The translations under genes and the position numbers were made by a program. From positions 1 to 64,000 of the forward strand of contig CM016926.1 of assembly GCA_006247105.1 (NCBI GenBank): a stretch of 64,000 bases of DNA. Direction: 5' to 3'. Each line of letters opens with the position of its first letter. Position 1 is the stretch's first letter. The stretch is from Giardia muris. Taxonomy: Eukaryota > Fornicata > Diplomonadida > Hexamitidae. The notes below the pieces were generated by a model, which saw nothing but the letters and a program-made list of their open reading frames with translations, was not told the origin of the DNA and did not search any database. This document shows positions 3,324 through 29,724 of this stretch, in pieces.

Positions 3324-3418
3324 CCATATGACCCCCTCTCCGGTCCATCCAGATGAGCTGGAGGTCTATAATGAGCTCGATGTCACCTCTCGCTCCAGGT
3401 CTCCCCTTCACCATTCAC

Positions 3419-5310
3419 TCACTTCCCCCTGCATCCGAACCACCAACCGAGGAAGCCCCCGAGGCCTCCCAGCACCAGCAGGACGGCAATGACGATCCCC
3501 GCAATGGCGCCCCCAGAGAGCCCCGAGGAGCTGGAGGAGGGGACGGCACTGCACTTCCCGTCGGTCGGGGCACTCCCGTCCCAGCACGTGATGCAGGCCG
3601 AGGCGGAGCACGTCGTGCAGCCACTGGGGCAGGCCGTGCAGTCAGAGGAGGAGGTGACGGAGGTCGTGTTGTAGTACCCGAGACCGCAGGACGTGCAGGC
3701 GGTCGATGAAGTGCAGGCCCCACAACCGGCCGGACAGAGGGTGAAGACGCCATTGGAGAGGGGGAAGGGGGAGTTGGTGGCCTTTGTTGTGCACTTCCCA
3801 TCAGTGGCCGCTGAACAGAGCTTACTCCCGACCGAAGTCCCAGGATTGGTGGCCGCAGGATAGCAGCCCCCTCGAAGAGGAAGTAGGTCGTCGAACAGTT
3901 CTCGCACCTCGTGGCGGTCCCGTCGACAGGAGTCGTCCCGTCCGCCTTCTTGCAGACGTCGTTGGTGGCCGTCCTCGAGATGGTCGAACTGACCTCGAGG
4001 CACGTCCCGTCGATCGGAACACTTCCCTTCTTGCACTCCTTGCACACCAGGGCCTCCCCGACGAGAAGCTGGTTGCTCCTGGCACAGAGGCCCGTCTTGT
4101 CCGCATCGAAGGAGGAGAGGCAGGAGGAGTTGGAGAGCATGCATCCGTTGAGGCAGGACGTGCAGGAGAAGGACGTGGAGTAGGTGCAGGTGTCGCAGTT
4201 CGCCTTCCCGTTCGTCGCGTCCCCGCAGAGGTAGAGCTTGGTGTCCTTGAGGAAGGCGATGGAGGTCGAGGTCGAGCAGGTCCCGTCTGCCGTCCGAGTC
4301 GTCATTGCACTGCACAGCTTGTTCCCGGGCTCCTTTGACTGGTTGTAGCACCCCCCGTTGAAGAGGAAGTGGGTGCTCGAGGACCCACAGGAGTTGCAGA
4401 CCCCGACCTGAGTTCCATCTTGGCTCGTCGTGCATGAGCTGGTCTGATCGGCCTTCCCCCCTTCCACCTTTATACACCTCCCGTCGACGGGGGCGAGCCC
4501 CTTCCCGCACTTACCGCAGAGGACCTCGGACCAGCCCGGGACGGAGAAGGACTCGAGGCAGATCCCGAGGCTCTTGAGGCTCTCGGGGCTGAAGCAGCCG
4601 TCGTGGAAGAAGAGGCTCCCCTCCTTGCAGTCCGTGCACTTCCCGGCATTGGAGGCAGGGGTGCAGGAGGAGGCACTGTCCTTGGGGACGCACTTCCCGT
4701 TGACGGGGACGTGAGTGGCAGCATTGCACTCGAGACACACGAAGCTGGTCCCGATCTGCATGCAGCTCTTGCAGTTCTCGTCCGATGAGCAGCTGACGCA
4801 GGAGGTGATCGTTGGTGTCTCGAGGCTCTCCACGACAGGCCCGAACCCGGAGGCGCACTCCGTGCAGGTCGGCTTGTCGGCGGCGGGGGAGGTGCAGGTC
4901 TTGCAGTTGAGAACCCCGTTCGTCTTATCATCACAGGTGTAGAGGCCTGATGGGTTGGAGTTACTCCCCTTCACGAAGATGCCCGTCGCAGTATCAGCCC
5001 TCTCTGAGCACTGCCCTTTGGTGGCCGTCTTGCAGAGAGCAGCACCCTCTGTTCCTGCCTGGTTGTAGCACCCCCCGTAGAAGAGGAAGTAGGTCCCTGT
5101 ACATGCCGTGCAGACACCATTGGAACACGTGTTGCTCTCAATAGCCGAGCTGCACGTCCCGTCGATCGAGGCCTCGGTCGTGGTCGCGCACTCCTTGCAG
5201 ACCCTCCCCAGCGTCCCGAGGTCGAGGCAGCTCCCCGTCTTGCTGTCGCCTGATGTCTCTCCTTCCGTGCACGAGAGGACTCTCGCGTTCTTCCCTCCCC
5301 CCTTCACCAT
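3419..5310 (-). pseudogene. VSP unit 1, frameshifted
   Basis: Last unit of the array in the direction of reading and the only one with an internal frameshift. The frame opens at the junction ATG (5310) with MVKGGGKNARVLSC and no signal peptide, and runs in phase for about 480 codons. At 3867-3871 a run of five C (plus strand) replaces the six C found at the same place in unit 3 (7293-7298). This shifts the frame just after FLFEG, within the GGCY motif. The downstream sequence still encodes the normal C-terminal ectodomain, membrane helix and GCRGK tail in the new phase, ending with TGA at 3419-3421. It otherwise matches unit 3 closely. The one-base change in a homopolymer could be real decay or a sequencing artefact. 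Confidence 0.8.
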
Positions 5311-5317
5311 TCACTCA
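5299..5317 (-). repeat. VSP inter-unit junction element (representative copy)
   Basis: TGAGTGAATGGTGAAGGGG combines the TGA stop of one unit, the poly(A) signal AGTGAAT, and an ATG followed by a G-rich stretch that opens the next unit. Exact copies lie at 3403-3421, 5299-5317, 6829-6847, 8726-8744, 10276-10294, 11845-11863, 13745-13763, 16848-16866, 20326-20344, 22239-22257, 24239-24257, 26179-26197 and 28179-28197. Variants lie at about 15249-15270 and 18749-18763. The copy at 3403-3421 ends the array and is followed by unrelated sequence. The phase of the ATG relative to the VSP frame varies between copies, so it is probably not a functional start. Confidence 0.85.
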
Positions 5318-6840
5318 CTTCCCCCTGCACCCGAACCACCAACCGAGGAAGCCCCCGAGGCCTCCCAGGACCAGCAGGACGGCGATGACGATCCCCGCAA
5401 TGGCACCCCCAGAGAGCCCCGAAGAACTGGAGGAGGGGGGAGGGGGGCAGGCATTGTTGGTGGGAGTGGAGCCGTCCCAGCAGAGGGCGCACTTCCCATT
5501 TGGACAGGAGGTGCACCCACTGGGACAGGCCGTGCAGTCGGAGGGGCCGGTCACAGTAGAGTTGCTGTAGTACCCGAGACCGCAGGAGCTGCAGGCGGTC
5601 GAGGAGGTGCAGGCCCCGCACTCCTTCGGACAGGCCGTGAAGGCGCCTGAGGTCGTATTGAGGATGAAGGGGGCGTTGGAGGCGGGAGTAGTGCACTTCC
5701 CGTTGGAGGCCGCCGAGCAGAGGAGGCTCCCGACGGAGGAAGAGGAGGAAGACCCCGCGGCCGAGATGGGGTAGCACCCCCCGTTGAAGAGGAAGTAGTT
5801 GTTGGTGTTGACTGCCGTACTGATGCAGGCCCCGCACTTCGTGGCGGTGTCCGAGACCTTGTTCCCCTTCTCGTCGAGGCAGATGTTCTGACCTGCCCTC
5901 GTCGTCCCATTGTTGATCTGCTTGATCGGAAGACACTCCCCGTCGATCGGGACGAAGCCCCCCTTGCACTCGGTGCAGACGGTCGTGTTCCCGACGAGGA
6001 GCTGGCTTCCCAGGGCACAGACCTTGAGGTCCGCCGCCTTCTGGGGGGAGAGACACCCGCCCTGGTAGAAGAGGAACCCGTTCTTGCAGGACGAGCAGGT
6101 CCCGTCTGGGGGTGATGGAGTCGTGCAGACGTTCGAGTTCGTGGAGCAGTTCCCGTCGATGGGGACCTTCCCCGTTCCGCACTTCTCGCAGATGGTCGAG
6201 AAGCCCTGGTCGGCGCAGTCGGTGCAGTCTGCGGGGCAGGAGGTGCAGTTCGTGATGACGAGGGATGAGTCGTAGACGGGCCCGAACCCGGAGGCGCACT
6301 CGGAGCAGGCGGAGGAGGAGCACGTCTTGCAGTTCTGGACGGTGCAGGCCGTGCAGTTGACGGGGTCGGAAGTGGTGGTGGTGTTGGGGTAGAAGCCCTC
6401 GAGGCACGAGTTGCAGGTGAGGGCTGAGTTGGTCGAGTCGTAGGTGCAGGTGCTGCAGCCCGATGCCCCGTTTGTCGCATCGCTACAGAGGTAGAGCTTC
6501 CCGTCCTTGACGAAGGTGATGGCATCGGTAGTTGGAGCCGTCTTGCAGGTTCCGTTCTTTGCATCCTGGAGGGCGGAGCACAGCTTGTTCCCAGGCGCCT
6601 TGGTCTGGTCATAACAGCCCCCGTTGAACAGGAAGTAGTTCCCCGTTCCACATCCTGTGCAGGCACCATCAGCACAAGTAGCACCATTCCCAATCGTGGT
6701 GGCCGCATCAGTGTCACAGAGCCCGTTGACAGGGGCGGAGTTAGTGTTAGTCGAGACATCGCACTTCTTGCAGAACGTCCCCTCAACCCCCGGGATGGTG
6801 AAGGTCGAACCACCCCCGTCTCATCCTTCCCCTTCACCAT
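5315..6840 (-). pseudogene. VSP unit 2, open frame without start codon
   Basis: A 501-codon VSP frame is open from 6820 to the stop at 5315-5317. It is preceded by an in-frame TGA at 6821-6823. It contains no ATG, and the first GTG is only at 5554. The junction ATG at 6840 is out of phase and gives a non-VSP peptide. The ectodomain begins STFTIPGVEGTFCKKCD and carries YFLFNGGCY twice, many CXXC pairs, the Ser run, the membrane helix and the CRGK tail. It is nearly identical to unit 4 at an offset of 3427 bases, except for the first few codons. Confidence 0.8.
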
Positions 6841-6844
6841 TCAC

Positions 6845-8737
6845 TCACTTCCCCCTGCATCCGAACCACCAACCGAGGAAGCCCCCGAGGCCTCCCAGGA
6901 CCAGCAGGACGGCAATGACGATCCCCGCAATGGCGCCCCCCGAGAGCCCCGAGGAGCTGGAGGAGGGGACGGCACTGCACTTCCCGTCGGTCGGGGCACT
7001 CCCGTCCCAGCACGTGATGCAGGCCGAGGCGGAGCACGTCGTGCAGCCACTGGGGCAGGCCGTGCAGTCAGAGGAGGAGGTGACGGAGGTCGTGTTGTAG
7101 TACCCGAGACCGCAGGACGTGCAGGCGGTCGATGAAGTGCAGGCCCCACAACCGGCCGGACAGAGGGTGAAGACGCCATTGGAGAGGGGGAAGGGGGAGT
7201 TGGTGGCCTTTGTTGTGCACTTCCCATCAGTGGCCGCTGAACAGAGCTTACTCCCGACCGAAGTCCCAGGATTGGTGGCCGCAGGATAGCAGCCCCCCTC
7301 GAAGAGGAAGTAGGTCGTCGAACAGTTCTCGCACCTCGTGGCGGTCCCGTCGACAGGAGTCGTCCCGTCCGCCTTCTTGCAGACGTCGTTGGTGGCCGTC
7401 CTCGAGATGGTCGAACTGACCTCGAGGCACGTCCCGTCGATCGGAACACTTCCCTTCTTGCACTCCTTGCACACCAGGGCCTCCCCGACGAGAAGCTGGT
7501 TGCTCCTGGCACAGAGGCCCGTCTTGTCCGCATCGAAGGAGGAGAGGCAGGAGGAGTTGGAGAGCATGCATCCGTTGAGGCAGGACGTGCAGGAGAAGGA
7601 CGTGGAGTAGGTGCAGGTGTCGCAGTTCGCCTTCCCGTTCGTCGCGTCCCCGCAGAGGTAGAGCTTGGTGTCCTTGAGGAAGGCGATGGAGGTCGAGGTC
7701 GAGCAGGTCCCGTCTGCCGTCCGAGTCGTCATTGCACTGCACAGCTTGTTCCCGGGCTCCTTTGACTGGTTGTAGCACCCCCCGTTGAAGAGGAAGTGGG
7801 TGTTCGAGGACCCACAGGAGTTGCAGACCCCGACCTGAGTTCCATCTTGGCTCGTCGTGCATGAGCTGGTCTGATCGGCCTTCCCCCCTTCCACCTTTAT
7901 ACACCTCCCGTCGACGGGGGCGAGCCCCTTCCCGCACTTACCGCAGAGGACCTCGGACCAGCCCGGGACGGAGAAGGACTCGAGGCAGATCCCGAGGCTC
8001 TTGAGGCTCTCGGGGCTGAAGCAGCCGTCGTGGAAGAAGAGGCTCCCCTCCTTGCAGGCCGTGCACTTCCCGGAGTTGGCGTCCGGGGTGCAGGAGGAGG
8101 CACTGTCCTTGAGGACGCACTTCCCGTTGACGGGGACGTGAGTGGCAGCATTGCACTCGAGACACACGAAGCTGGTCCCGATCTGCATGCAGCTCTTGCA
8201 GTTCTCGTCCGATGAGCAGCTGACGCAGGAGGTGATCGTTGGTGTCTCGAGGCTCTCCACGACAGGCCCGAACCCGGAGGCGCACTCCGTGCAGGTCGGC
8301 TTGTCGGCGGCGGGGGAGGTGCAGGTCTTGCAGTTGAGAACCCCGTTCGTCTTATCATCACAGGTGTAGAGGCCTGATGGGTTGGAGTTACTCCCCTTCA
8401 CGAAGATGCCCGTCGCAGTATCAGCCCTCTCTGAGCACTGCCCTTTGGTGGCCGTCTTGCAGAGAGCAGCACCCTCTGTTCCTGCCTGGTTGTAGCACCC
8501 CCCGTAGAAGAGGAAGTAGGTCCCTGTACATGCCGTGCAGACACCATTGGAACACGTGTTGCTCTCAATAGCCGAGCTGCACGTCCCGTCGATCGAGGCC
8601 TCGGTCGTGGTCGCGCACTCCTTGCAGACCCTCCCCAGCGTCCCGAGGTCGAGGCAGCTCCCCGTCTTGCTGTCGCCTGATGTCTCTCCTTCCGTGCACG
8701 AGAGGACTCTCGCGTTCTTCCCTCCCCCCTTCACCAT
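6845..8737 (-). pseudogene. VSP unit 3, intact 630-codon frame lacking a signal peptide
   Basis: The frame runs unbroken from the junction ATG (8735-8737) to TGA at 6845-6847. It encodes 630 residues: a cysteine-rich ectodomain from KNARVLSCTEG, one Met-containing segment (KSCMQIGTSF), GGCY motifs, the C-terminal helix and the tail. The N-terminus MVKGGGK has no hydrophobic stretch, so the product could not enter the secretory pathway in the ordinary way. I therefore class it as pseudogenic or donor sequence even though the frame is intact. The 3.43 kb block of units 3+4 is a near-copy of units 1+2. Confidence 0.78.
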
Positions 8738-8741
8738 TCAC

Positions 8742-10287
8742 TCACTTCCCCCTGCACCCGAACCACCAACCGAGGAAGCCCCCGAGGCCTCCCAGGACCA
8801 GCAGGACGGCGATGACGATCCCCGCAATGGCACCCCCAGAGAGCCCCGAAGAACTGGAGGAGGGGGGAGGGGGGCAGGCATTGTTGGTGGGAGTGGAGCC
8901 GTCCCAGCAGAGGGCGCACTTCCCATTTGGACAGGAGGTGCACCCACTGGGACAGGCCGTGCAGTCGGAGGGGCCGGTCACAGTAGAGTTGCTGTAGTAC
9001 CCGAGACCGCAGGAGCTGCAGGCGGTCGAGGAGGTGCAGGCCCCGCACTCCTTCGGACAGGCCGTGAAGGCGCCTGAGGTCGTATTGAGGATGAAGGGGG
9101 CGTTGGAGGCGGGAGTAGTGCACTTCCCGTTGGAGGCCGCCGAGCAGAGGAGGCTCCCGACGGAGGAAGAGGAGGAAGACCCCGCGGCCGAGATGGGGTA
9201 GCACCCCCCGTTGAAGAGGAAGTAGTTGTTGGTGTTGACTGCCGTACTGATGCAGGCCCCGCACTTCGTGGCGGTGTCCGAGACCTTGTTCCCCTTCTCG
9301 TCGAGGCAGATGTTCTGACCTGCCCTCGTCGTCCCATTGTTGATCTGCTTGATCGGAAGACACTCCCCGTCGATCGGGACGAAGCCCCCCTTGCACTCGG
9401 TGCAGACGGTCGTGTTCCCGACGAGGAGCTGGCTTCCCAGGGCACAGACCTTGAGGTCCGCCGCCTTCTGGGGGGAGAGACACCCGCCCTGGTAGAAGAG
9501 GAACCCGTTCTTGCAGGACGAGCAGGTCCCGTCTGGGGGTGATGGAGTCGTGCAGACGTTCGAGTTCGTGGAGCAGTTCCCGTCGATGGGGACCTTCCCC
9601 GTTCCGCACTTCTCGCAGATGGTCGAGAAGCCCTGGTCGGCGCAGTCGGTGCAGTCTGCGGGGCAGGAGGTGCAGTTCGTGATGACGAGGGATGAGTCGT
9701 AGACGGGCCCGAACCCGGAGGCGCACTCGGAGCAGGCGGAGGAGGAGCACGTCTTGCAGTTCTGGACGGTGCAGGCCGTGCAGTTGACGGGGTCGGAAGT
9801 GGTGGTGGTGTTGGGGTAGAAGCCCTCGAGGCACGAGTTGCAGGTGAGGGCTGAGTTGGTCGAGTCGTAGGTGCAGGTGCTGCAGCCCGATGCCCCGTTT
9901 GTCGCATCGCTACAGAGGTAGAGCTTCCCGTCCTTGACGAAGGTGATGGCATCGGTAGTTGGAGCCGTCTTGCAGGTTCCGTTCTTTGTATCCTGGAGGG
10001 CGGAGCACAGCTTGTTCCCAGGCGCCTTGGTCTGGTCATAACAGCCCCCGTTGAACAGGAAGTAGTTCCCCGTTCCACATCCTGTGCAGGCACCATCAGC
10101 ACAAGTAGCACCATTCCCAATCGTGGTGGCCGCATCAGTGTCACAGAGCCCGTTGACAGGGGCGGAGCCAGTGTCAGTCGTGGCATCGCACTTCTTGCAG
10201 AACGTCCCCTCAACCCCTGGGATGGTGAAGGTCGAATCAGCTGCACACGTCCCCGCAGCTCGAGCCTTCACCTCCCCCCTTCACCAT
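8742..10287 (-). pseudogene. VSP unit 4, no in-frame ATG
   Basis: The VSP frame of 509 codons begins at a GTG (10271) reading KARAAGTCAADSTF, just after an in-frame TGA created by the junction. The junction ATG at 10287 is out of phase. Body and tail match unit 2 almost base for base, but the first 15 or so codons differ, so the 5' edge was exchanged separately. The stop is TGA at 8742-8744. A GTG start without promoter or signal peptide is not credible in Giardia. Confidence 0.8.
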
Positions 10288-10291
10288 TCAC

Positions 10292-11856
10292 TCACTTCCC
10301 CCTGCACCCGAACCACCAACCGAGGAAGCCCCCGAGGCCTCCCAGGACCAGCAGGACGGCGATGACGATCCCCGCAATGGCACCCCCCGAGAGCCCCGAG
10401 GAGCTGGAGGAGGGGGGAGAGGGGCAGGCATTGTTGGTGGGAGGGGACCCGTCCCAGCAGAGGGTGCACTTCCCATTTGGACAGGAGGTGCACCCACTGG
10501 GACAGGCCGTGCAGTCGGAGGGGCCGGTCACAGCAGTAGTGTTGTAGTACCCCACTGAGAGGCACTTGGTGCAGTCCGTCCCACTCGTGCAGGTGGCGCA
10601 CCCGGGGGCGCAGGAGACGAGGACGGTCCCATTGAGGTAGAGGCCCGAGTCAGCCTTGACAGCTGTGCAGACCCCATTAGAGGCCGTGGTGCAGGCGCTC
10701 TTCCCGACCTCCGTGGAGACGTTGTAGCAGCCCCCGTTGAGGAGGAAGAAGTTAGTGGTCGAGGCCCCGGTCACGTCCTGGCACTTCCCGCACCTCGTGG
10801 AGGACGCATCGAGGGCGCTTCCGTCCTCCTTCTGGCAGATCTGGGTCGCCCTCGTCACGTTCGTCGAGGCGACCAGAAGGCATTCTCCGTTGATCGGGAC
10901 GAAGCCCGGCTTGCACTCGGAGCAGACCGTCGTGTTCCCGACCAGGAACTGCTTCTCCTTCGCACAGACGCCCAGCTCGGCGGCCTTGAAGGTCGAGTAG
11001 CATCCCTCGAGGTAGGGGACGTATCCATTGAGGCAGGACGTGCAGGTGCCGGAGGAGTCGGTGCAGACCTTCTTGGTGGTCTCGTTTGCAGGAACACACC
11101 CCCCGTCGATCGGGGCCTGATCAGTCGGACACTCGGTGCAGACGAGCCCCGGACCGAGGTTGGTGCAGGAGGTGCAGTTCTTGGGACAGGAGTCGCAGGA
11201 CGTGATGGCAAGGGAGGAGTTGTAGGTCGGGCCGAAGGAGGGGAGGCAGACCTTGCAGGTCTTCTCGTCCGTGTCGCACGTCTTGCAGTTCTGGATGGTG
11301 CAGGCCTTGCAGGTCTTGTCGGCAAGGCCGAAGCCGGGGCTGCAGGCGGAGCAGGTGTTCTCAGCACTCACCTGGGCACAGTTGGAGCACTTGGTGGTGT
11401 CACTACAGGAGACGCAGCTCCCGTCCCCCTTGGGGAGGAAGCCACTGGCACAGGAGGTGCAGGTGACGGATGACTCGTAGGTGCAGGTGTTGCAGTTCGC
11501 CTTCCCGTTCGTGCTGTCACTGCAGAGGTAGAGGGTGTCACTCTTGACGAAGGTGACCGCGTCCTTGTCCGGGACGGCCGTGCACTTCCCCCCGGTGGCC
11601 GTCTTGCAGAGCTTGTTCCCGGGAGAGGCGTCCTTCTTGTAGCACCCACCATAGAAGAGGAAGTAGTTCCCCGTTCCACACGACTCACACGTGCCATCGG
11701 CAGTTGGGGACTTCTGAGTACAGTCACTGCCTGGAGTCCCACACTTCCCATTGATCGGGGCCTGACTCGTCTCACTGCACTTCTTGCAGAACTCTCCATC
11801 AACCCCCGGGATGGTGAAGGTCGAACCACCCCCGTCTCATCCTTCCCCTTCACCAT
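10292..11856 (-). pseudogene. VSP unit 5, no in-frame ATG
   Basis: About 514 codons are open from 11836 (after an in-frame TGA at 11837-11839) to TGA at 10292-10294. No ATG lies in phase and the first GTG is at 11371. The N-terminal third (FCKKCSETSQAPINGKC) is related to unit 7. The central block (KTCDTDEKTC, SFGPTYNSSLAITSCDSC, KNCTSC) and the C-terminal third (CLSVGYYNTT) are shared with units 7 and 10, and the central block also with unit 8. The tail is the common one. Confidence 0.78.
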
Positions 11857-11860
11857 TCAC

Positions 11861-13756
11861 TCACTTCCCCCTGCATCCGAACCACCAACCGAGGAAGCCC
11901 CCGAGGCCTCCCAGCACCAGCAGGACGGCGATGACGATCCCCGCAATGGCGCCCCCAGAGAGCCCCGAGGAGCTGGAGGAGGGGACGGCACTGCACTTCC
12001 CGTCGGTCGGAGCACTCCCGTCCCAGCACGTGATGCAGGCCGAGGCGGAGCACGTCGTGCAGCCACTGGGGCAGGCCGTGCAGTCAGAGGAGGAGGTGAC
12101 GGAGGTCGTGTTGTAGTACCCGAGACCGCAGGACGTGCAGGCGGTCGCGTTCGTGCAGGCCCCACAACCGGCCGGACAGAGGGTGAAGACGCCACTGGAG
12201 AGGGGGAAGGGGGAGCCATTGGCAGCAGTAGTGCACTGACCATTGGAGGCCGTTTGACACAGCTTGCTCCCGACGGAGTTCGAGGTCGTGGGGTAGCAGC
12301 CCCCCTCGAAGAGGAAGTAGCTGACGCTCCCAACAGTCGAACAGTTCTCGCACCTCGTGGCGGTCCCGTCGACAGGAGTCGTCCCGTCCGCCTTCTTGCA
12401 GACGTCGTTGGTGGCCGTCCTCGAGATGGTCGAACTGACCTCGAGGCACGTCCCGTCGATCGGAACACTTCCCTTCTTGCACTCCTTGCACACCAGGGCC
12501 TCCCCGACGAGAAGCTGGTTGCTCCTGGCACAGAGGCCCGTCTTGTCCGCATCGAAGGAGGAGAGGCAGGAGGAGTTGGAGAGCATGCATCCGTTGAGGC
12601 AGGACGTGCAGGAGAAGGACGTGGAGTAGGTGCAGGTGTCGCAGTTCGCCTTCCCGTTCGTCGCGTCCCCGCAGAGGTAGAGCTTGGTGTCCTTGAGGAA
12701 GGCGATGGAGGTCGGGGTCGAGCAGGTCCCGTCTGCCGCCCGAGTCGTCATTGCCGTGCACAGCTTGTTCCCGACCCCATCTGCCTGTTTGTAGCACCCC
12801 CCGTTGAAGAGGAAGTGGGTGTTCGAGGACCCACAGGAGTCGCAGACCCCGACCTGAGTTCCATCTTGGCTCGTCGTGCATGAGCTGGTCTGATCGGCCT
12901 TCCCCCCTTCCACCTTCAGACACCTCCCGTCGACGGGGGCGAGCCCCTTCCCGCACTTACCGCAGAGGACCTCGGACCAGCCCGGGACGGAGAAGGACTC
13001 GAGGCAGATCCCGAGGCTCTTGAGGCTCTCGGGGCTAAAGCAGCCGTCGTGGAAGAAGAGGCTCCCCTCCTTGCAGGCCGTGCACTTCCCGGCATTGGAG
13101 GCAGGGGTGCAGGAGGAGGCACTGTCCTTGAGGACGCACTTCCCGTTGACGGGGACGTGAGTGTCATCATTGCACTCGAGACACACGAAGCTGGTCCCGA
13201 TCTGCATGCAGCTCTTGCAGTTCTCGTCCGATGAGCAGCTGACGCAGGAGGTGATCGTTGGTGCCTCGAGGCTCTCCACGACAGGCCCGAACCCGGAGGC
13301 GCACTCCGTGCAGGTCGACTTGTCGGCGGCGGGGGAGGTGCAGGTCTTGCAGTTGAGAACCCCGTTCGTCTTATCATCACAGGTGTAGAGGCCTGATGGG
13401 TTGGAGTTACTCCCCTTCACGAAGATGCCCGTCGCAGTATCAGCCCTCTCTGAGCACTGCCCTTTGGTGGCCGTCTTGCAGAGAGCAGCACCCTCTGTTC
13501 CTGCCTGGTTGTAGCACCCCCCGTAGAAGAGGAAGTAGGTCCCTGTGCATGCCGTGCAGACACCATTGGAACACGTGTTGCTCCCGACGGTCGAGCTGCA
13601 CGTCCCGTCGATCGAGGCCTCGGTCGTGGTCGCGCACTCCTTGCAGACCCTCCCCAGCGTCCCGAGGTCGAGGCAGCTCCCCGTCTTGCTGTCGCCTGAT
13701 GTCTCTCCTTCCGTGCACGAGAGGACTCTCGCGTTCTTCCCTCCCCCCTTCACCAT
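11861..13756 (-). pseudogene. VSP unit 6, intact 631-codon frame lacking a signal peptide
   Basis: Unbroken frame from the junction ATG (13754-13756) to TGA at 11861-11863, of the same class as units 1 and 3. It differs from them near the C-terminus, where the cysteine-rich segment after CENCSTVGSVSYFLFEGG carries a different block (TTSNSVGSKLC, AANGSPFPLSSG) that resembles units 9, 11 and 13. That substitution is a likely conversion tract. N-terminus MVKGGGKNARVLSC, no hydrophobic leader. Confidence 0.78.
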
Positions 13757-13760
13757 TCAC

Positions 13761-15260
13761 TCACTTCCCCCTGCACCCGAACCACCAACCGAGGAAGCCC
13801 CCGAGGCCTCCCAGCACCAGCAGGACGGCGATGACGATCCCCGCAATGGCACCCCCAGAGAGCCCCGAGGAGCTGGAGGAGGGGGGAGGGGGGCAGGCAT
13901 CCTTGGTGGGGGCGGAGCCGTCCCAGCAGAGGTTGCACGTCCCATTTGGACAGGAGGTGCACCCACTGGGACAGGCCGTGCAGTCGGAGGGGCTGGTCAC
14001 AGTAGTGGAGTTGTAGTACCCCACTGAGAGGCACTTGGTGCAGTCCGTCCCACTCGTGCAGGTGGCGCACCCGGGGGCGCAGGAGGTGAGGACGGTCCCA
14101 TTGAGGTAGAGGCCCGAGTCAGCCTTGACAGCTGTGCAGACCCCACCAGAGGCCGTGGTGCAGGCGCTCTTCCCGACCTCCGTGGAGGCGTTGTAGCAGC
14201 CCCCGTTGAGGAGGAAGAAGTTAGTGGTCGTGGACCCGGTCACGTCCTGGCACTTCCCGCACCTCGTGGAGGACGCATCGAGGGCGCTTCCGTCCTCCTT
14301 CTGGCAGATCTGGGTCGCCCTCGTCACGTTCGTCGAGGCGACCAGAAGGCATTCTCCGTTGATCGGGACGAAGCCCGGCTTGCACTCGGAGCAGACCGTC
14401 GTGTTCCCGACCAGGAACTGCTTCTCCTTCGCACAGACGCCCAGCTCGGCGGCCTTGAAGGTCGAGTAGCATCCCTCGAGGTAGGGGACGTATCCATTGA
14501 GGCAGGACGTGCAGGTGCCGGAGGAGTCGGTGCAGACCTTCTTGGTGGTCTCGTTTGCAGGAACACACCCCCCGTCGATCGGGGCCTGATCAGTCGGACA
14601 CTCGGTGCAGACGAGCCCCGGACCGAGGTTGGTGCAGGAGGTGCAGTTCTTGGGACAGGAGTCGCAGGACGTGATGGCAAGGGAGGAGTTGTAGGTCGGG
14701 CCGAAGGAGGGGAGGCAGACCTTGCAGGTCTTCTCGTCCGTGTCGCACGTCTTGCAGTTCTGGATGGTACAGGCCTTGCAGGTCTTGCCAGTCTCTCCAA
14801 CAAGGCCAAAGCCGGGAAGGCAGGTCTGACAGGTGAAGGTGCTTGTATCCGAGGCGTAGGTGCATGTACCGCAGTTCTCTTTTCCTCCCGCATCTGTCGA
14901 GTTGTCACTGCAGAGGTAGAGAACCTCACTCTTGATGAAGGCGGGAGAGTTATCCTGGAGATCGGTGCACTTCCCAGCAACCACGGTCTTGCAGAGCTTG
15001 TTCCCGGGAGAGGTGTCCGTCTTGTAGCACCCACCATAGAAGAGGAAGTAGTCCGTACTTGAGTCTCCACACTTTGTACAGGCACCATTGGCACAAGTAG
15101 CACCCGAGACAGTATTAGTCGCCCCACACACCCCATCGATCGGGGCCTCCGACTCGGTCGAACACTTCTTGCAGAACTCTCCATCAACCCCCGGGATGGT
15201 GAACTTTGAGTTTGCCTCGCACTCTCCCGTGGCTCGAGCCTTCCCTCCCCCCTTCACCAT
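13761..15260 (-). pseudogene. VSP unit 7, intact 499-codon frame lacking a signal peptide
   Basis: The junction ATG (15258-15260) is in phase, giving MVKGGGKARATGECEANSKF and then a VSP ectodomain of the shorter class. Apart from the first residue I see no methionine in the frame. The centre (CKACTIQNCKTCDTDEKTC through CLSVGYYNST) is almost the same as in unit 5. The 5' third (STESEAPIDGVC, CANGACTKCG) is distinctive. The stop is TGA at 13761-13763. No signal peptide. Confidence 0.78.
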
Positions 15261-15267
15261 TCACCAT

Positions 15268-16859: not shown

Positions 16860-16863
16860 TCAC

Positions 16864-18756
16864 TCACTTCCCCCTGCATCCGAACCACCAACCGAGGAAG
16901 CCCCCGAGGCCTCCCAGCACCAGCAGGACGGCAATGACGATCCCCGCAATGGCACCCCCCGAGAGCCCCGAGGAGCTGGAGGAGGGGACGGCACTGCACT
17001 TCCCGTCGGTCGGAGCACTCCCGTCCCAGCACGTGATGCAGGCCGAGGCGGAGCACGTCGTGCAGCCACTGGGGCAGGCCGTGCAGTCAGAGGAGGAGGT
17101 GACGGAGGTCGTGTTGTAGTACCCGAGACCGCAGGACGTGCAGGCGGTCGCGTTCGTGCAGGCCCCACACCCGGCCGGACAGAGGGTGAAGACGCCTGAG
17201 GTCGTATTGAGAGGGAAGGGGGAGCCACTGGCAGCAGTAGTGCACTTCCCATTGGAGGCCGATGAGCACAGCTTGCTCCCGACGGAGTTCGAGGTCGTGG
17301 GATAGCAGCCCCCCTCGAAGAGGAAGTAGGTCGTCGAGCAGTTCTCGCACCTCGTGGCGGTCCCGTCGACAGGAGTCCCGTCGGCCTTCTTGCAGACGTC
17401 GTTGGTGGCCGTCCTCGAGATGGTCGAGCTGACCTCGAGGCACGTCCCGTCGATCGGAACACTTCCCTTCTTGCACTCCTTGCACACCAGGGCCTCCCCG
17501 ACGAGAAGCTGGTTGCTGTTGGCACAGAGGCCCGTCTTGTCCGCATCGAAGGAGGAGAGGCAGGAGGAGTTGGAGAGCATGCATCCGTTGAGGCAGGACG
17601 TGCAGGAGAAGGACCCGGAGTAGGTGCAGGTGTTGCAGTTCGCCTTCCCGTTCGTCGCGTCCCCGCAGAGGTAGAGCTTGGTGTCCTTGAGGAAGGCGAT
17701 GGAGGTCGGGGTCGAGCAGGTCCCGTCTGCCGCCCGAGTCGTCATTGCCGTGCACAGCTTGTTCCCGGGCTCCTTTGACTGGTTGTAGCACCCCCCGTTG
17801 AAGAGGAAGTGGGTGTTCGAGGACCCACAGGAGTCGCAGACCCCGACCTGAGTGTCCTTTTGGCTCGTCGTGCATGAGCTGGTCGGATCGGCCTTCCCCC
17901 CTTCCACCTTTATACACCTCCCGTCGACGGGGGCGAGCCCCTTCCCGCACTTACCGCAGAGGACCTCGGACCAGCCCGGGACGGAGAAGGACTCGAGGCA
18001 GATCCCGAGGCTCTTGAGGCTCTCGGGGCTGAAGCAGCCGTCGTGGAAGAAGAGGCTCCCCTCCTTGCAGGCCGTGCACTTCCCGGCATTGGAGGCAGGG
18101 GTGCAGGAGGAGGCACTGTCCTTGAGGACGCACTTCCCGTTGACGGGGACGTGAGTGTCATCATTGCACTCGAGACACACGAAGCTGGTCCCGATCTGCA
18201 TGCAGCTCTTGCAGTTCTTGTCCGATGAGCAGCTGACACAGGAGGTGATCGTTGGTGCATCGAGGCTCTCCACGACAGGCCCGAATCCGGAGGCGCACTC
18301 CGTGCAGGTCGGCTTGTCGGCGGCGGGGGAGGTGCAGGTCTTGCAGTTGGGAACCCCGTTCGTCTTATCATCACAGGTGTAGAGGCCTGAGGGGTTGGAC
18401 TCGCTCCCCTTCACGAAGATGCCCGTCGCAGTATCAGCCCTCTCTGAGCACTTCCCGTTCGATGCCGTCTGGCAGAGAGCAGCGCCCTCGCCTCCTGCCT
18501 GGTTGTAGCATCCCCCGTAGAAGAGGAAGTAGGTCCCTGTGCATGCCGTGCAGACACCAGTGGTTGTGTCCTTCGTACAATCATCGGCTGTTGGAGCCTT
18601 GCACGTCCCGTCGATCGAGGCCTGGTTCGTGTCACTGCACTCCTTGCAGACCTTCCCCAGTGTCCCGAGGTCGAGGCAGCTCCCCGTCTTGCAGTTGCCT
18701 GATGCCGTCCCTTCCGTACACGAGAGGACTCTCGCGTTCTTCCCTCCCCTCACCAT
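16864..18756 (-). pseudogene. VSP unit 9, intact 630-codon frame lacking a signal peptide
   Basis: Unbroken frame from the junction ATG (18754-18756) to TGA at 16864-16866. The start reads MVRGGKNARVLSCTEG because the junction is three bases shorter (ATGGTGAGGGGAGGG). The N-terminal insert (SDTNQASIDGTC, KAPTADDCTKDTTTGVC) is unlike units 1, 3 and 6 but related to unit 13. The rest is of the 630-residue class with the C-terminal block TTSNSVGSKLCSSASNG. No hydrophobic leader. Confidence 0.78.
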
Positions 18757-18760
18757 TCAC

Positions 18761-20337
18761 TCACTTCCCCCTGCACCCGAACCACCAACCGAGGAAGCCC
18801 CCGAGGCCTCCCAGCACCAGCAGGACGGCGATGACGATCCCCGCAATGGCACCCCCCGAGAGCCCCGAGGAGCTGGAGGAGGGGGGAGAGGGGCAGGCAT
18901 CCTTGGTGGGGGCGGAGCCGTCCCAGCAGAGGGTGCACGTCCCATTTGGACAGGAGGTGCACCCACTGGGACAGGCCGTGCAGTCGGAGGGGCCGGTCAC
19001 AGTAGTAGTGTTGTAGTACCCCACTGAGAGGCACTTGGTGCAGTCCGTCCCACTCGTGCAGGTGGCGCACCCGGGGGCGCAGGAGGTGAGGACGGTCCCA
19101 TTGAGGTAGAGGCCCGAGTCAGCCTTGACAGCTGTGCAGACCCCACCAGAGGCCGTGGTGCAGGCGCTCTTCCCGACCTCCGTGGAGGCGTTGTAGCAGC
19201 CCCCGTTGAGGAGGAAGAACTGAGTAGCCGGGGTCCCGGTCACGTCCTGGCACTTCCCGCACCTCGTGGAGGACGCGTCGGGGGCGCTTCCGTCCTCCTT
19301 CTGGCAGATCTGGGTCGCCCTCGTCACGTTCGTCGAGGCGACCAGAAGGCATTCTCCGTTGATCGGGACGAAGCCCGGCTTGCACTCGGAGCAGACCGTC
19401 GTGTTCCCGACCAGGAACTGCTTCTCCTTCGCACAGACGCCCAGCTCGGCGGCCTTGAAGGTCGAGTAGCATCCCTCGAGGTAGGGGACGTATCCATTGA
19501 GGCAGGACGTGCAGGTGCCGGAGGAGTCGGTGCAGACCTTCTTGGTGGTCTCGTTTGCAGGAACACACCCCCCGTCGATCGGGACCTGACCAGTCGGACA
19601 CTCGGTGCAGACGAGCCCCGGACCGAGGTTGGTGCAGGAGGTGCAGTTCTTGGGACAGGAGTCGCAGGACGTGATGGCAAGGGAGGAGTTGTAGGTCGGG
19701 CCGAAGGAGGGGAGGCAGGCCGAACAGGTCTTCTCGTCCGTGTCGCACGTCTTGCAGTTCTGGATGGTGCAGGCCTTGCAGGTCGAGCCGGCAAGAAGGC
19801 CGAAGCCGGGGCTGCAGGCGGAGCAGGTGTCGGCAGCACTCACCTGGGCACAGTTGGAGCACTTGGAGGTGTCACTGCATGTCTCGCAGCTCCCGTCGGT
19901 CTTGGGGAGGTAGTCCTTGGCACAGGAGGTGCACTTGAAGGTCGAGTCGTATGTGCAGGTCTCGCAGTTCGCCTTCCCGTTCGTGCTGTCACTGCAGAGG
20001 TAGAGGATGTCACTCTTGACGAAGGTGACCGCGTCCTTGTCCGGGACGGCCGTGCACTTCCCGTTGGTGGCCGTCTTGCAGAGCTTGTTCCCGGGAGAGG
20101 TGTCCGTCTTGTAACAACCCCCGTTGAACAGGAAGTACGGATCTGGGCAGGCCGTGCAGGCACCACTACCACAAGTAGCACCATTCCCAATCGTGGTGGC
20201 CGCAGCAGTGTCACAGAGCCCGTTGACAGGGGCGGAGTTAGTGTTAGTCGAGACATCGCACTTCTTGCAGAACGTCCCCTCAACCCCTGGGATGGTGAAG
20301 GTCGAACCACCCCCGTCTCATCCTTCCCCTTCACCAT
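18761..20337 (-). pseudogene. VSP unit 10, no in-frame ATG
   Basis: About 518 codons are open from 20317 to TGA at 18761-18763, after an in-frame TGA at 20318-20320. The first GTG is at 19843. The 5' 500 bases look the same as those of unit 8 at an offset of 3478, whereas the C-terminal third follows units 5 and 7 (CLSVGYYNTT) instead of unit 8. This makes it the clearest mosaic pair in the array. Confidence 0.78.
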
Positions 20338-20341
20338 TCAC

Positions 20342-22250
20342 TCACTTCCCCCTGCATCCGAACCACCAACCGAGGAAGCCCCCGAGGCCTCCCAGCACCA
20401 GCAGGACGGCAATGACGATCCCCGCAATGGCACCCCCCGAGAGCCCCGAGGAGCTGGAGGAGGGGACGGCACTGCACTTCCCGTCGGTCGGAGCACTCCC
20501 GTCCCAGCACGTGATGCAGGCCGAGGCGGAGCACGTCGTGCAGCCACTGGGGCAGGCCGTGCAGTCAGAGGAGGAGGTGACGGAGGTCGTGTTGTAGTAC
20601 CCGAGACCGCAGGACGTGCAGGCGGTCGCGTTCGTGCAGGCCCCACACCCGGCCGGACAGAGGGTGAAGACGCCTGAGGTCGTATTGAGAGGGAAGGGGG
20701 AGCCACTGGCAGCAGTAGTGCACTTCCCATTGGAGGCCGATGAGCACAGCTTGCTCCCGACGGAGTTCGAGGTCGTGGGATAGCAGCCCCCCTCGAAGAG
20801 GAAGTAGGTCGTCGAGCAGTTCTCGCACCTCGTGGCGGTCCCGTCGACAGGAGTCCCGTCGGCCTTCTTGCAGACGTCGTTGGTGGTCGTCCTCGAGATG
20901 GTCGAACTGACCTCGAGGCACGTCCCGTCGATCGGAACACTTCCCTTCTTGCACTCCTTGCACACCAGGGCCTCCCCGACGAGAAGCTGGTTGCTCCTGG
21001 CACAGAGGCCCGTCTTGTCCGCATCGAAGGAGGAGAGGCAGGAGGAGTTGGAGAGCATGCATCCGTTGAGGCAGGACGTGCAGGAGAAGGACCCGGAGTA
21101 GGTGCAGGTGTTGCAGTTCGCCTTCCCGTTCGTCGCGTCCCCGCAGAGGTAGAGCTTGGTGTCCTTGAGGAAGGCGATGGAGGTCGGGGTCGAGCAGGTC
21201 CCGTCTGCCGTCCGAGTCGTCATTGCCTTGCACAGCTTGTTCCCGGGCTCCTTTGACTGGTCGTAGCACCCCCCGTTGAAGAGGAAGTGGGTGCTCGAGG
21301 ACCCACAGGAGTTGCAGACCCCGACCTGAGTGTCCTTTTGGCTCGTCGTGCATGAGCTGGTCGGATCGGCCTTCCCCCCTTCCACCTTTATACACCTCCC
21401 GTCGACGGGGGCGAGCCCCTTCCCGCACTTACCGCAGAGGACCTCGGACCAGCCCGGGACGGAGAAGGACTCGAGGCAGATCCCGAGGCTCTTGAGGCTC
21501 TCGGGGCTAAAGCAGCCGTCGTGGAAGAAGAGGCTCCCCTCCTTGCAGGCCGTGCACTTCCCGGCATTGGAGGCAGGGGTGCAGGAGGAGGCACTGTCCT
21601 TGAGGACGCACTTCCCGTCGACGGGGACGTGAGTGGCAGCATTGCACTCGAGACACACGAAGCTGGTCCCGATCTGCATGCAGCTCTTGCAGTTCTCGTT
21701 CGATGAGCAGTTGACGCAGGAGGTGATCGTTGGTGCATCGAGGCTCTCCACGACAGGCCCGAACCCGGAGGCGCACTCCGTGCAGGTCGGCTTGTCGGCG
21801 GCGGGGGAGGTGCAGGTCTTGCAGTTGGGAACCCCGTTCGTCTCGTCATCACAGGTGTAGAGGCCTGTTGGAGCATCCTTGCTCCCCTTCACGAAGATGC
21901 CTGCCGTAGTATCAGCCCTCTTTGAGCACTGCCCTTTGGTGGCCGTCTTGCAGAGAGCCTGCCCCTTTCCAGCTGTCTGAGTGCTGTAGCAGCCCCCGTA
22001 GAAGAGGAAGTTGTTGGCTGCATTCCCGCACGAGCTGCACGTCCCGTTGTTCGCATTGACACAATCGTTCCCACTGGTCGAGGTGCACTCCCCGTCGATT
22101 GGGAACTCAGCAGCTCGAGTCGTGGTCGCGCACTCCTTGCAGACCTTCCCCAGCGTCCCGAGGTCGAGGCAGCTCCCCGTCTTGCAGTTGCCTGATGCCG
22201 TCCCTTCCGTACACGAGAGGTCTCTCGCGTTCTTCCCTCCCCTTCACCAT
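20342..22250 (-). pseudogene. VSP unit 11, no in-frame ATG
   Basis: About 633 codons are open from 22243 to TGA at 20342-20344. An in-frame TGA lies at 22244-22246 and the first GTG at 21892. The junction ATG (22250) is out of phase. The 5' segment is distinctive (RAAEFPIDGECTSTSGNDC, FLFYGGCYSTQTAGKG). From FVKGSKDAPTGLYTC on it follows units 9 and 13. Standard helix and CRGK tail. Confidence 0.78.
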
Positions 22251-22254
22251 TCAC

Positions 22255-24250: not shown

Positions 24251-24254
24251 TCAC

Positions 24255-26190
24255 TCACTTCCCCCTGCATCCGAACCACCAACCGAGGAAGCCCCCGAGA
24301 CCTCCCAGGACCAGCAGGACGGCAATGACGATCCCCGCAATGGCACCCCCCGAGAGCCCCGAGGAGCTGGAGGAGGGGACGGCACTGCACTTCCCGTCGG
24401 TCGGAGCACTCCCGTCCCAGCACGTGATGCAGGCCGAGGCGGAGCACGTCGTGCAGCCACTGGGGCAGGCCGTGCAGTCAGAGGAGGAGGCGACGGAGGT
24501 CGTGTTGTAGTACCCGAGACCGCAGGACGTGCAGGCGGTCGCGTTCGTGCAGGCCCCACACCCGGCCGGACAGAGGGTGAAGACGCCTGAGGTCGTATTG
24601 AGAGGGAAGGGGGAGCCACTGGCAGCAGTAGTGCACTTCCCATTGGAGGCCGATGAGCACAGCTTGCTCCCGACGGAGTTCGAGGTCGTGGGATAGCAGC
24701 CCCCCTCGAAGAGGAAGTAGCTGACGCTCCCAACAGTCGAACAGTTCTCGCACCTCGTGGCGGTCCCGTCGACAGGAGTCGTCCCGTCGGCCTTCATGCA
24801 GACGTCGTTGGTGGTCGTCCTCGAGATGGTCGAGCTGACCTCGAGGCACGTCCCGTCGATCGGAACACTTCCCTTCTTGCACTCCTTGCACACCAGGGCC
24901 TCCCCGACGAGAAGCTGGTTGCTCCTGGCACAGAGGCCCGTCTTGTCCGCATCGAAGGAGGAGAGGCAGGAGGAGTTGGAGAGCATGCATCCGTTGAGGC
25001 AGGACGTGCAGGAGAAGGACCCGGAGTAGGTGCAGGTGTTGCAGTTCGCCTTCCCGTTCGTCGCGTCCCCGCAGAGGTAGAGCTTCTTGTCCTTGAGGAA
25101 GGCGATGGAGGTCGAGGTCGAGCAGGTCCCGTCTGCCGCCCGAGTCGTCATTGCCGTGCACAGCTTGTTCCCGGGCTCCTTTGACTGGTTGTAGCACCCC
25201 CCGTTGAAGAGGAAGTGGGTGCTCGAGGACCCACAGGAGTTGCAGACCCCGACCTGAGTGTCCTTTTGGCTCGTCGTGCATGAGCTGGTCGGATCGGCCT
25301 TCCCCCCTTCCACCTTTATACACCTCCCGTCGACGGGGGCGAGCCCCTTCCCGCACTTACCGCAGAGGACCTCGGACCAGCCCGGGACGGAGAAGGACTC
25401 GAGGCAGATCCCGAGGCTCTTGAGGCTCTCGGGGCTAAAGCAGCCGTCGTGGAAGAAGAGGCTCCCCTCCTTGCAGGCCGTGCACTTCCCGGCATTGGAG
25501 GCAGGGGTGCAGGAGGAGGCACTGTCCTTGAGGACGCACTTCCCGTCGACGGGGACGTGAGTGGCAGCATTGCACTCGAGACACACGAAGCTGGTCCCGA
25601 TCTGCATGCAGCTCTTGCAGTTCTTGTCCGATGAGCAGCTGACACAGGAGGTGATCGTTGGTGCATCGAGGCTCTCCACGACAGGCCCGAATCCGGAGGC
25701 GCACTCCGTGCAGGTCGGCTTGTCGGCGGCGGGGGAGGTGCAGGTCTTGCAGTTGGGAACCCCGTTCGTCTCGTCATCACAGGTGTAGAGGCCTGTTGGA
25801 GCATCCTTGCTCCCCTTCACGAAGATGCCTGCCGTAGTATCAGCCCTCTCTGAGCACTTCCCGTTCGATGCCGTCTTGCAGAGAGCAGCGCCCTCGCCTC
25901 CACTGGCCTGGTTGTAGCACCCCCCGTAGAAGAGGAAGTAGGTGTTGGAGCCCCCAGTGACCGATGCAGTGCAGTCCGTGCAGGCCCCATTGTTGCCCTT
26001 CGTACAATGATCCGTCGCCTCTGTTGGGGCCTTGCACGTCCCGTCGATCGAGGCCTCGTTCGCGGTCGCGCACTCCTTGCAGACCTTCCCCAGCGTCCCG
26101 AGGTCGAGGCAGCTCCCCGTCTTGCAGTTGCCTGATGCCGTCCCTTCCGTACACGTGAGGTCCCTCGCGTTCTTCCCTCCCCTTCACCAT
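24255..26190 (-). pseudogene. VSP unit 13, no in-frame ATG
   Basis: About 642 codons are open from 26183 to TGA at 24255-24257, with TGA at 26184-26186 in phase upstream and the first GTG at 25820. The 5' segment differs from unit 11 by an insertion of nine codons (EATDHCTKGNNGACTDC, VTGGSNTYFLFYGG). The remainder is close to unit 11, so units 13+14 are a copy of units 11+12 with one exchanged 5' block. Confidence 0.78.
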
Positions 26191-26194
26191 TCAC

Positions 26195-28190: not shown

Positions 28191-28194
28191 TCAC

Positions 28195-29724
28195 TCACTT
28201 CCCCCTGCATCCGAACCACCAACCGAGGAAGCCCCCGAGACCTCCCAGGACCAGCAGGACGGCAATGACGATCCCCGCAATGGCACCCCCCGAGAGCCCC
28301 GAGGAGCTGGAGGAGGGGGGAGGGGGGCAGACATCGTTGGTGGGAGTGGAGCCGTCCCAGCAGAGGGTGCACTTGTCGGCAGTGCACGTCGTGCAGCCCG
28401 AGATGACCGAGGAGCACGCCTTGCAGGTCGTGGTGGCCCCGCTCGTCTCCGCGACGTACCCGAAGGTGCAGGCGGTGCAGGTGGTGGAGGAGGTGCACTG
28501 GCAGCCCCCGGGGCACTGGACGATGTTCCCGTTGTCGAGGTAGAAGCCCGAGTCAGTCTTGACAGCTGTGCAGTTCCCGGTCTTGACGTCGTTCGGATCG
28601 CAGATGGCGCCCCCAACAGTCCCGGCCGCGTCGTAGCAGCCCCCGTTCAGGAGGAAGTAGTTGGTCCCGGCGCACTTCTCGCACTTCGTGGCAGAGGTCC
28701 CGACCTTCGTCCCGCTCCCATCGAGGCAGATGTTGGTGTTCGCCAGCCTCGTCCCCGTGTTCACCATCTTCAGGGGCGTGCAGGTCCCGTCGAGGGGCAC
28801 GGAGCCCTTCCCACACTCCTTGCAGACGCTGACCTGTCCGACGACGAACTGGTTGCTCTTGGAGCAGAGGCCGATGGTGGCCGCCTTCTCGGGACTGAGG
28901 CAGATCCCGAAGTAGTCCATGAAGCCGTTCTTGCAGCCCCCGTTCGTCACGACGGCCCCGACGATCGGATCCGTGCTCTTCAGACAGGTCCCGTCGATGG
29001 GGGTGTAGCCCGTCTCGCAGCCCGTGCAGATGAGCCCGAGCCCGAGGTCGACACAGCTCGTGCAGTTGGAGTGGATGGTCGAGCAGTTCGAGGTGCAGGC
29101 CTCGAAGCCGTCGAAGTTCGCGTTCGCCTTCCCCCCGAGGCCCGGCTTGCAGGCCGTGCAGATCTTCTCGTCTGTGTCGCACGTCTTGCAGTTGGTGACG
29201 GTGCAGACCTCGCATGTATCGGTGTCGAGCTTGTACCCGGCAGAGCATTTGGAGCAGGCGTTCCCGGCATCAGCAGCGACGTCGCAGTTGGTGCACTTGG
29301 GGTCAGTGCAGGAGACGCAGGTCCCGTCAGCTTTCGGAAGGAAGTTCTCGTTGCACGTCAAGCACTTCGTGTTGTCGTCGTTGCACGTCTGACAGTTCTG
29401 GATGGTGCACGCAGAGGGAGGAGTTGGAGTCGGAGTCGAGGCCACACAGTTCGACTTGTCATCTGAGAGGGTGAAGCCGGGGTTGCAGGAAGCACACTTG
29501 TTGTCAGAACTCGCCGTGGCACAGTTGGTGCAGGCGGCACAGGAGTAGCAGTTGGAGCCGTCCGAGTCCTTGAGGTAGCCGTCGTTGCAGGTGTCGCACT
29601 TCGTGTCATCACCACTGACGCATGCCTGACAGTTCTGTACAGTGCACGTCGTCCTCGCCCTTGTGCACTCCCCCGTTCCGGCTCCTTCCGTGCACGTGAG
29701 GTCTCTCGCGTTCTTCACCTCCAT
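28195..29724 (-). pseudogene. VSP unit 15, 5'-most unit of the array
   Basis: This unit heads the array. The frame to TGA at 28195-28197 is intact. The first plausible start is an ATG at 29722-29724 (MEVKNARDLTCTEG), giving 509 residues, again with no hydrophobic leader. Homology to the 5' edge of other units begins at GTGAAGAACGCGAGAG. Upstream the same frame stays open for about 88 codons but encodes unremarkable, leaderless sequence. Ectodomain features peculiar to it are VQNCQACVSGDDTKC, a Pro/Thr stretch (STPTPTPPSAC) and CTSSTTCTAC. No promoter-like element is obvious upstream. Confidence 0.75.

Follow-up and report, generated by a model that had tools for sequence, protein, structure and literature searches.

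The window analysed here is a 64,000-nucleotide stretch of Giardia muris DNA, bases 1-64000 of contig C2 (CM016926.1; the assembly comprises 9.74 Mb in 52 contigs), and it carries close to the contig end a tandem array of VSP sequences without a signal peptide (SP). Fifteen VSP units, each 1.5-2.0 kb long, follow one another head to tail on the minus strand between 3,419 and 29,722, their tails facing the contig end. Every unit begins behind the SP position and finishes with a membrane span and a GCRGK stop, which reads GCRGK-TGA in 14 of the 15 and GCRGK-TAA in the unit with low end 15268. The units fall into classes whose names were coined in the present analysis: alpha (U1, U3, U6, U9, U11, U13), beta (U5, U7, U8, U10), beta2 (U2, U4), gamma (U12, U14) and delta (U15).

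3419..5314, minus strand: U1, alpha, the unit nearest the telomere; frame interrupted roughly halfway; 1886 of 1896 aligned bases equal those of U3, plus a one-base gap
5315..6844, minus strand: U2, beta2; open over 501 aa; no in-frame edge ATG
6845..8741, minus strand: U3, alpha; open over 630 aa; in-frame ATG in the bases after the upstream unit's stop
8742..10291, minus strand: U4, beta2; open over 512 aa; tract shared with the SP-bearing VSP L058, 194 bp at 99%
10292..11860, minus strand: U5, beta; open over 514 aa; tract shared with the SP-bearing VSP L034, 685 bp at 97%
11861..13760, minus strand: U6, alpha; open over 631 aa; junction-derived in-frame ATG
13761..15267, minus strand: U7, beta; open over 499 aa; tract shared with L034, 722 bp at 98%
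15268..16863, minus strand: U8, beta; open over 523 aa; TAA stop; tract shared with the SP-bearing VSP L058, 1308 bp at 97%
16864..18760, minus strand: U9, alpha; open over 630 aa; junction-derived in-frame ATG
18761..20341, minus strand: U10, beta; open over 518 aa; tract shared with L034, 682 bp at 98%
20342..22254, minus strand: U11, alpha; open over 633 aa
22255..24254, minus strand: U12, gamma; open over 662 aa; 99.3% identity to U14
24255..26194, minus strand: U13, alpha; open over 642 aa
26195..28194, minus strand: U14, gamma; open over 662 aa
28195..29712, minus strand: U15, delta body, the array head and 5'-most unit; 521 aa
29713..29722, minus strand: hinge GGAGGTGAAG, 10 bases leading from the constant leader-side module into the body in array heads, and here marking the 5' edge of U15; cassettes start at or near the hinge
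29713..29787, minus strand: post-signal-peptide module LGTIDRSSGRAVPEIDVLEGSMEVK, 75 bp; the hydrophobic leader upstream is absent here
5290..5314, minus strand: example junction from U2 to U1, 25 bases past the TGA including an ATG, then an altered hinge and an NAR-type body start

Pfam VSP (PF03302) matched all four of the 15 units that were scanned, with E values from 4e-19 to 2e-39, and the 14 open units contain 18-24 CXXC and 1-4 GGCY motifs each; the (G)CRGK tail is present in 15 of 15. G+C content is 62-64% across the array versus 49-56% past 34 kb, and an Rfam scan of bases 1-34000 gave no match at the gathering threshold. With 15 tandem units and tails toward base 1 of C2, the locus corresponds to a linear array of psiVSPs (SP-less VSPs), defined as more than three tandem SP-less VSPs with tails toward the contig end, and it is very probably one of the 17 arrays described in PMC7641422; the initial annotation had correctly stated that telomere-adjacent arrays of this class were known (PMC7641422).

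Fourteen of the 15 units are open from the 5' edge to the tail stop, over 499-662 aa (the 521 aa of U15 were measured with a short upstream margin). The initial annotation had reported 15 consecutive intact units; the number stands, and 14 are indeed open, but it passed over the broken frame of U1, the unit closest to the contig end. U1-U2 and U3-U4 form a duplicated dimer (99.5% and 98.8%). Because an alpha copy on unplaced contig C46, adjoining an identical flank and 99% identical to U3, retains an open frame, the break in U1 may reflect either a single version or an error in the consensus. When three units were shuffled with dinucleotide composition kept, an open reading frame of at least 480 codons arose in only 1 of 600 shuffles, so the long frames are not a product of chance. 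An in-frame ATG is found at the edge of U1, U3, U6, U7, U9 and U15 and is absent from nine units (ten, the figure given initially, holds if U15 is not counted); in U1, U3, U6, U7 and U9 it falls within the bases after the preceding unit's stop.

None of the silent units tested carries a hydrophobic leader: the best 10-residue Kyte-Doolittle mean within the first 45 aa was 0.37-1.74 in a set of 57 silent units that covers every window unit but U1, versus 2.41-3.06 in 18 distinct SP-bearing VSPs. The window contains none of the 27 leaders that we found, only a post-leader remnant at 29759-29787, which agrees with the earlier description of units starting just after the signal-peptide region.

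Neighbouring units are fused through short junctions, with GTGAATGGTGAAGGGG or a near form after almost every stop, followed by the next unit. Across 57 interior cassettes, taken from the window and from fetched loci, the distance from stop to body is 19-28 bases in 37 and 35-36 in 20 (22-28 or 35 in the window). This set reaches 2,768,900 on C1-right and 1,278,800 on C3-right; beyond it lie the larger part of C4-right, C5-right and the unplaced contigs. The junction stretch also opens the 3' flank of many VSPs, solitary as well as complete, and continues there into GGGGAGACCTGG. At array heads, a constant 75-base module ends in the hinge ahead of the body, the hinge being GGAGGTGAAG at 17 of 22 head places and GGGGGTGAAG at the other 5. 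The plain join GGGGAG-GTGAAG is retained in 5 of the 57 cassettes, and most other joins look like small-indel derivatives of it or, at the beta edge, begin about 10 or more bases further in. Since hinge and 3' flank ends have GGAG in common, tandem duplication at this 4-base match would be the simplest origin of the junctions. In the example junction, AGTGAA overlaps the U2 stop, a sequence that we take to be a form of the Giardia poly(A) signal.

Leaders were identified at 27 places with up to three mismatches (15 type A, 9 type B and 3 type C), and all 27 start with ATGTT; this mismatch-tolerant set provides the fair count, as a 24-of-24 tally of ATGTT was true by construction of the script's pattern. 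Within the first 40 bases ATGTT occurs in 0 of 58 cassettes, and the junction ATGs are never ATGTT. The type C post-leader module was found at 58 places, with the leader present at 3 of these. The 22 places read show 11 combinations of upstream context (four kinds, plus an odd one) with an alpha, beta, gamma or delta body (classes assigned by short motifs), so upstream DNA and body have been exchanged about the hinge. The window head has an upstream context ending in CGCAATG and lacks the leader. Downstream of 8 of 24 SP-bearing VSPs (L021, L034, L039, L051, L054, L056, L057 and L058) lies the edge of a silent cassette in the same orientation, judged from the first 30 or more bases downstream, and thus cassette arrays, whether short or long, often have a complete gene at their head.

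Of the 57 interior cassettes, 56 keep an open frame all the way from the edge to the tail; the window contributes 13 of 14 and the other loci 43 of 43. Genome-wide, 70 of 438 candidate alpha matches were scored, of which 65 are near full length, 61 of them stop-free and 4 with one TGA; U1 is among the 5 scored matches outside this group. In a neutral tree simulation, a mean of 21.5 or 23.7 of the 24 open alpha units (U1 having been removed for its frameshift) gained a stop, with a minimum over 60 runs of 15 or 21, whereas none is observed. A bound that requires no tree gives at least 732 mutations and 9.5-20.7 expected stops in the same units, again with none observed. The ratio of nonsynonymous to synonymous substitution (dN/dS) between units, a check named in the initial annotation, was 0.56-0.66 in the four largest groups (alpha 0.60, beta 0.66, beta2 0.56), and 0 of 276 alpha pairs exceeded 1; neutral calibration of the measure gave means of 0.93-1.15, and individual replicates ranged between 0.60 and 1.88. 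For these ratios U1 was excluded as not open and L057 as too short to its first stop, SP-bearing duplicates were counted once, groups with a single member gave no ratio, and SP-bearing members occur in two of the four largest groups (2 of 16 in beta). In the 12 closest silent pairs (less than 4% apart, without reuse), 201 of 331 changes are nonsynonymous versus 75% expected (p 8e-9). Gap runs divisible by three versus not divisible by three numbered 481/542, 694/619, 273/221 and 182/251 in four classes (60 pairs sampled per class, except that the two smaller ones were used whole, with 28 and 15 pairs), figures in which divergent stretches over-gap. Because frames exceed neutral-model retention and dN/dS lies well below 1, the units are constrained and are not in simple decay, as had been argued from the window alone.

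Identical runs beyond chance (Bonferroni) were detected in 107 of 275 alpha pairs, 88 of 120 beta pairs, 28 of 28 beta2 pairs and 15 of 15 pairs in a six-member group (three complete A-type units, three silent), with 0 of 2 pairs in a small group around L039. The exchange partners include units of different chromosomes, and the alpha pairwise synonymous difference runs, from 5' to 3', 0.28, 0.19, 0.03, 0.07, 0.09 and 0.13. The units are mosaics, with strong tract-wise exchange among copies in one direction or the other. Of the proposal that gene conversion maintains the array as a set of donors, the exchange is borne out; present donor use is putative, and so is any direction of conversion.

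The initial annotation had also proposed a search for conversion tracts shared with complete VSPs. We required at least 100 bp at 95% or more outside the conserved tail (last 250 bases trimmed) and compared the window with 24 of the 27 SP-bearing loci, 19 of them distinct. Body tracts with readable SP-bearing VSPs were found in U4, U5, U7, U8 and U10, and the partner genes, all with leader type C, stand at the heads of arrays and do not belong to the chromosome-central VSPs. Elsewhere, chromosome-central VSPs share tracts with cassettes (e.g. L059/L011, 160 bp at 100%). U15 yielded a 104-bp match mostly inside the constant leader-side module and no body tract. The SP-bearing alpha copy, L057, entered the tract test with its first 140 bases only; its whole body, compared separately, matches the six alpha units of the window in 96-97% of non-gap columns and L046-155 in 98%. 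Leaderless cassettes homologous to the body of complete genes, one mark of a silent-cassette variation system, are present. The unit at 2373 of L051 (G000:C1:2759000-2768900) has an alpha-like N-terminus and a beta-like remainder, and because the class switches at GGCY, as judged by eye, it suggests this motif as a possible exchange point.

The SP-bearing head at the right end of chromosome 2 (C2:2370154) combines a type C leader with an open beta body (L034, 553 aa). The 1,154 bases upstream of it recur at 100% in C6 and C7 and nowhere else in the assembly. A second probe, starting 4.5 kb further upstream, found the same three places at the same spacing with one base different in C6; the comparison consists of these two probes, with the 3.3 kb between them outside it. 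From start codon to hinge, C2, C6 and C7 are identical, and the bodies that follow are beta in C2, alpha in C6 and another beta in C7 (open, 566 aa), the two betas being 82% identical. The C7 head body is closest to cassette 7 of the C2 right-end array (98%, among the 40 of 297 candidates that were scored), the first 386 bases of the next unit equal cassette 8, and the C7 3' flank is identical to that of the C2 right-end array, as if a cassette-7-like body had come to lie behind the C7 head with loss of the intervening cassettes, or the reverse had occurred by expansion. Against alpha units the C6 body shows 36-37 gap runs not divisible by three, versus 2-7 in the open units compared, and a drop in quality on leaving the shared DNA would fit a rare version covered by few reads. 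Taken together, these places look like three assembled versions of one locus, with different bodies behind identical leader DNA.

The array is bordered by modules that recur at other chromosome ends.

2110..3418, unstranded: telomere-side flank module; 100% identity at C2-left, C2-right, C5-left and five unplaced contigs, 89-99% elsewhere
29800..31200, unstranded: centromere-side flank; 95-97% identity by the left-end array heads of C1, C3, C4 and C5 and at some internal places

The five unplaced contigs with the identical telomere-side flank are C7, C32, C33, C44 and C46, and this flank appears to be strongly homogenised from end to end. A frame near 3150-3323 inside it is RING-like by eye. 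On the other side of the array, the translation of the open frame at 31223-33166 looks, by eye, like ankyrin repeats and a kinase, and an inverted copy of the DNA upstream of it occupies 1983-2135, ahead of an ankyrin-like gene that lies at the end of the contig. Unplaced contigs C6, C10, C32-C35, C44 and C46 duplicate parts of the main arrays; unplaced array contigs may be versions of ends or poor consensus.

We consider it probable that the array is a silent donor reservoir of VSP bodies, constrained by their circulation behind leaders, a reading that would jointly account for the open frames, the dN/dS values, the mosaicism and the head versions. Each unit amounts to a mature VSP that begins at the hinge or close to it and runs to the stop; because the units are fused head to tail via the bases trailing the preceding stop, a leader and a start of the complete-VSP type are absent. 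A tandem duplication that joined the 3' flank to the hinge at GGAG could have created this architecture; unequal exchange together with segmental conversion, acting from one chromosome end to another, would then have spread and diversified it. Constraint would be imposed when bodies periodically move behind a leader and promoter, as at the chromosome's opposite end. Since its own head has lost the leader, the window array would contribute by ectopic exchange only; donation by this particular array is our inference.

Several observations weigh against a donor role. Only 5 of the 15 window units have body tracts with readable SP-bearing VSPs, with no such body partner for U2, U12, U14 and U15 in these tests, and the alpha partner L057 is poor in sequence quality, with many one-base gaps. 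Changes imported by conversion could explain part of the constraint in recent pairs. On unplaced contigs, 8 of 20 units among the matches listed have open frames below 450 aa, a count in which truncation and frame break are not distinguished. Outside array interiors, most SP-less copies have kept their frames as well (open in 21 of 24 heads and solitary copies that were uncut, scored over the VSP part, some being only short 3' pieces, after 6 cut rows of 30 were dropped), which means that frame retention is not special to arrays; we dropped the idea of a special maintenance of arrays, since these heads and solitary copies could not be separated from array cassettes. Finally, the C6 and C7 heads could be separate ends and not versions of one locus. 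Concerted evolution without any donor role is accordingly a real rival, albeit an unlikely one in our estimate: the arrays would be by-products of subtelomeric duplication, kept similar and readable by fresh copies coming in from functional genes. Such a process is favoured by subtelomeric flanks that several ends share without a difference over 1.0-1.3 kb, by the dimer duplication of U1-U2 and U3-U4, by the mostly open SP-less copies outside array interiors and by the fall of alpha synonymous divergence from about 0.28 to 0.03 within the unit, as homogenisation predicts. However, alpha, the commonest class, has one poor-quality SP-bearing relative in the loci read, so that a refreshing source is not evident, and the recent silent pairs show constraint, for which imported differences could nevertheless account.

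Two further explanations we regard as very improbable. A reading of the units as neutral relics in decay, that is ordinary pseudogenes, has in its favour the missing leader and start, the broken U1, the four alpha copies with TGA and the 8 short-framed units of 20 among those listed on unplaced contigs, but 56 of 57 open cassettes, a dN/dS of about 0.6 and 0 stops versus 9.5-20.7 expected speak against general decay. Expression in place, through a junction ATG, read-through or a spliced-on leader, has in its favour the in-frame junction ATG of five window units and the cassettes elsewhere that are in frame with the upstream unit. It is hardly compatible with the absence of a leader and with ATGTT at 27 of 27 leaders versus 0 of 58 cassettes (first 40 bases), and psiVSP transcription is essentially nil, with only three cis- and five trans-introns described (PMC7641422). 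For the right end of chromosome 2, we put forward the tentative model, which we hold quite possibly but not probably correct, that the SP-bearing head is a recombinational expression site at which bodies are set behind a constant promoter and leader at the hinge, partly by array contraction; three versions would coexist in the sequenced population, and headless arrays would be second-line donors. That the C2, C6 and C7 head versions are instead assembly chimeras or different chromosome ends, with no switching, seems to us somewhat unlikely. The short contigs, the flanks widely common between ends and the 36-37 non-triplet gap runs of the C6 body, a sign of poor consensus, fit this alternative, whereas the upstream DNA is confined to C2, C6 and C7, and the C7 body is open over 566 aa and no closer than 98% to other places (40 of 297 candidates scored) and hence does not represent assembled copies that were collapsed into one. 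If the expression-site model is true, G. muris would vary its coat by DNA rearrangement besides choosing among intact genes.

In the published account of G. muris, psiVSP arrays are telomere-adjacent, exchange with VSPs was inferred from phylogeny (Xu et al. 2020, PMC7641422) and psiVSPs were untranscribed in three life stages (PMC7641422). The window shares with those arrays the SP-less linear arrangement at contig ends and the tails toward the chromosome end, and silence is among their published features (PMC7641422). The passages of PMC7641422 consulted and our literature searches yielded no account of retained frames, tests of selection, the hinge and junction, or heads that occur with more than one body. 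As far as these searches show, what is new here is that units abut via short junctions at or near the hinge, that the cassettes are not decaying, that tracts are shared with SP-bearing VSPs, and the head versions at the right end of chromosome 2.

Antigenic variation in Giardia has been described as epigenetic switching among genes (PMC2996952), and a role as recombination cassettes was proposed for the vsp arrays of Giardia lamblia (Adam et al. 2010, PMC2996952). In these arrays, too, a start element occurs in 12 of 25 first genes and in none of the downstream members reported, and spacers are tiny or absent; they differ in that spacers average 60 bp and reach 241 (PMC2996952), a telomere bias is not apparent, and complete VSPs number 133 versus 26 in G. 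muris (PMC7641422). The defined hinge and the candidate three-body site make the old cassette hypothesis (PMC2996952) decidable by long reads. Borrelia vls likewise has contiguous promoterless cassettes, often with long open frames, near a telomere and feeding one expression site (PMC11499132, PMC9604149). It differs in being bacterial, in cassettes that match the vlsE central region only, in the head-to-head arrangement of vlsE with its array, in conversion being established there and in a dN/dS cited as high, versus about 0.6 here (PMC11499132, PMC9604149). The present tests mark the units read, in arrays published as pseudogenes, as constrained coding sequence. VSGs in the archive of Trypanosoma brucei are mostly frame-damaged, whereas 56 of the 57 G. 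muris cassettes are open. The two systems are nevertheless alike in having silent telomeric or subtelomeric arrays as donors, actual in the trypanosome and putative here, a comparison already drawn in PMC7641422.

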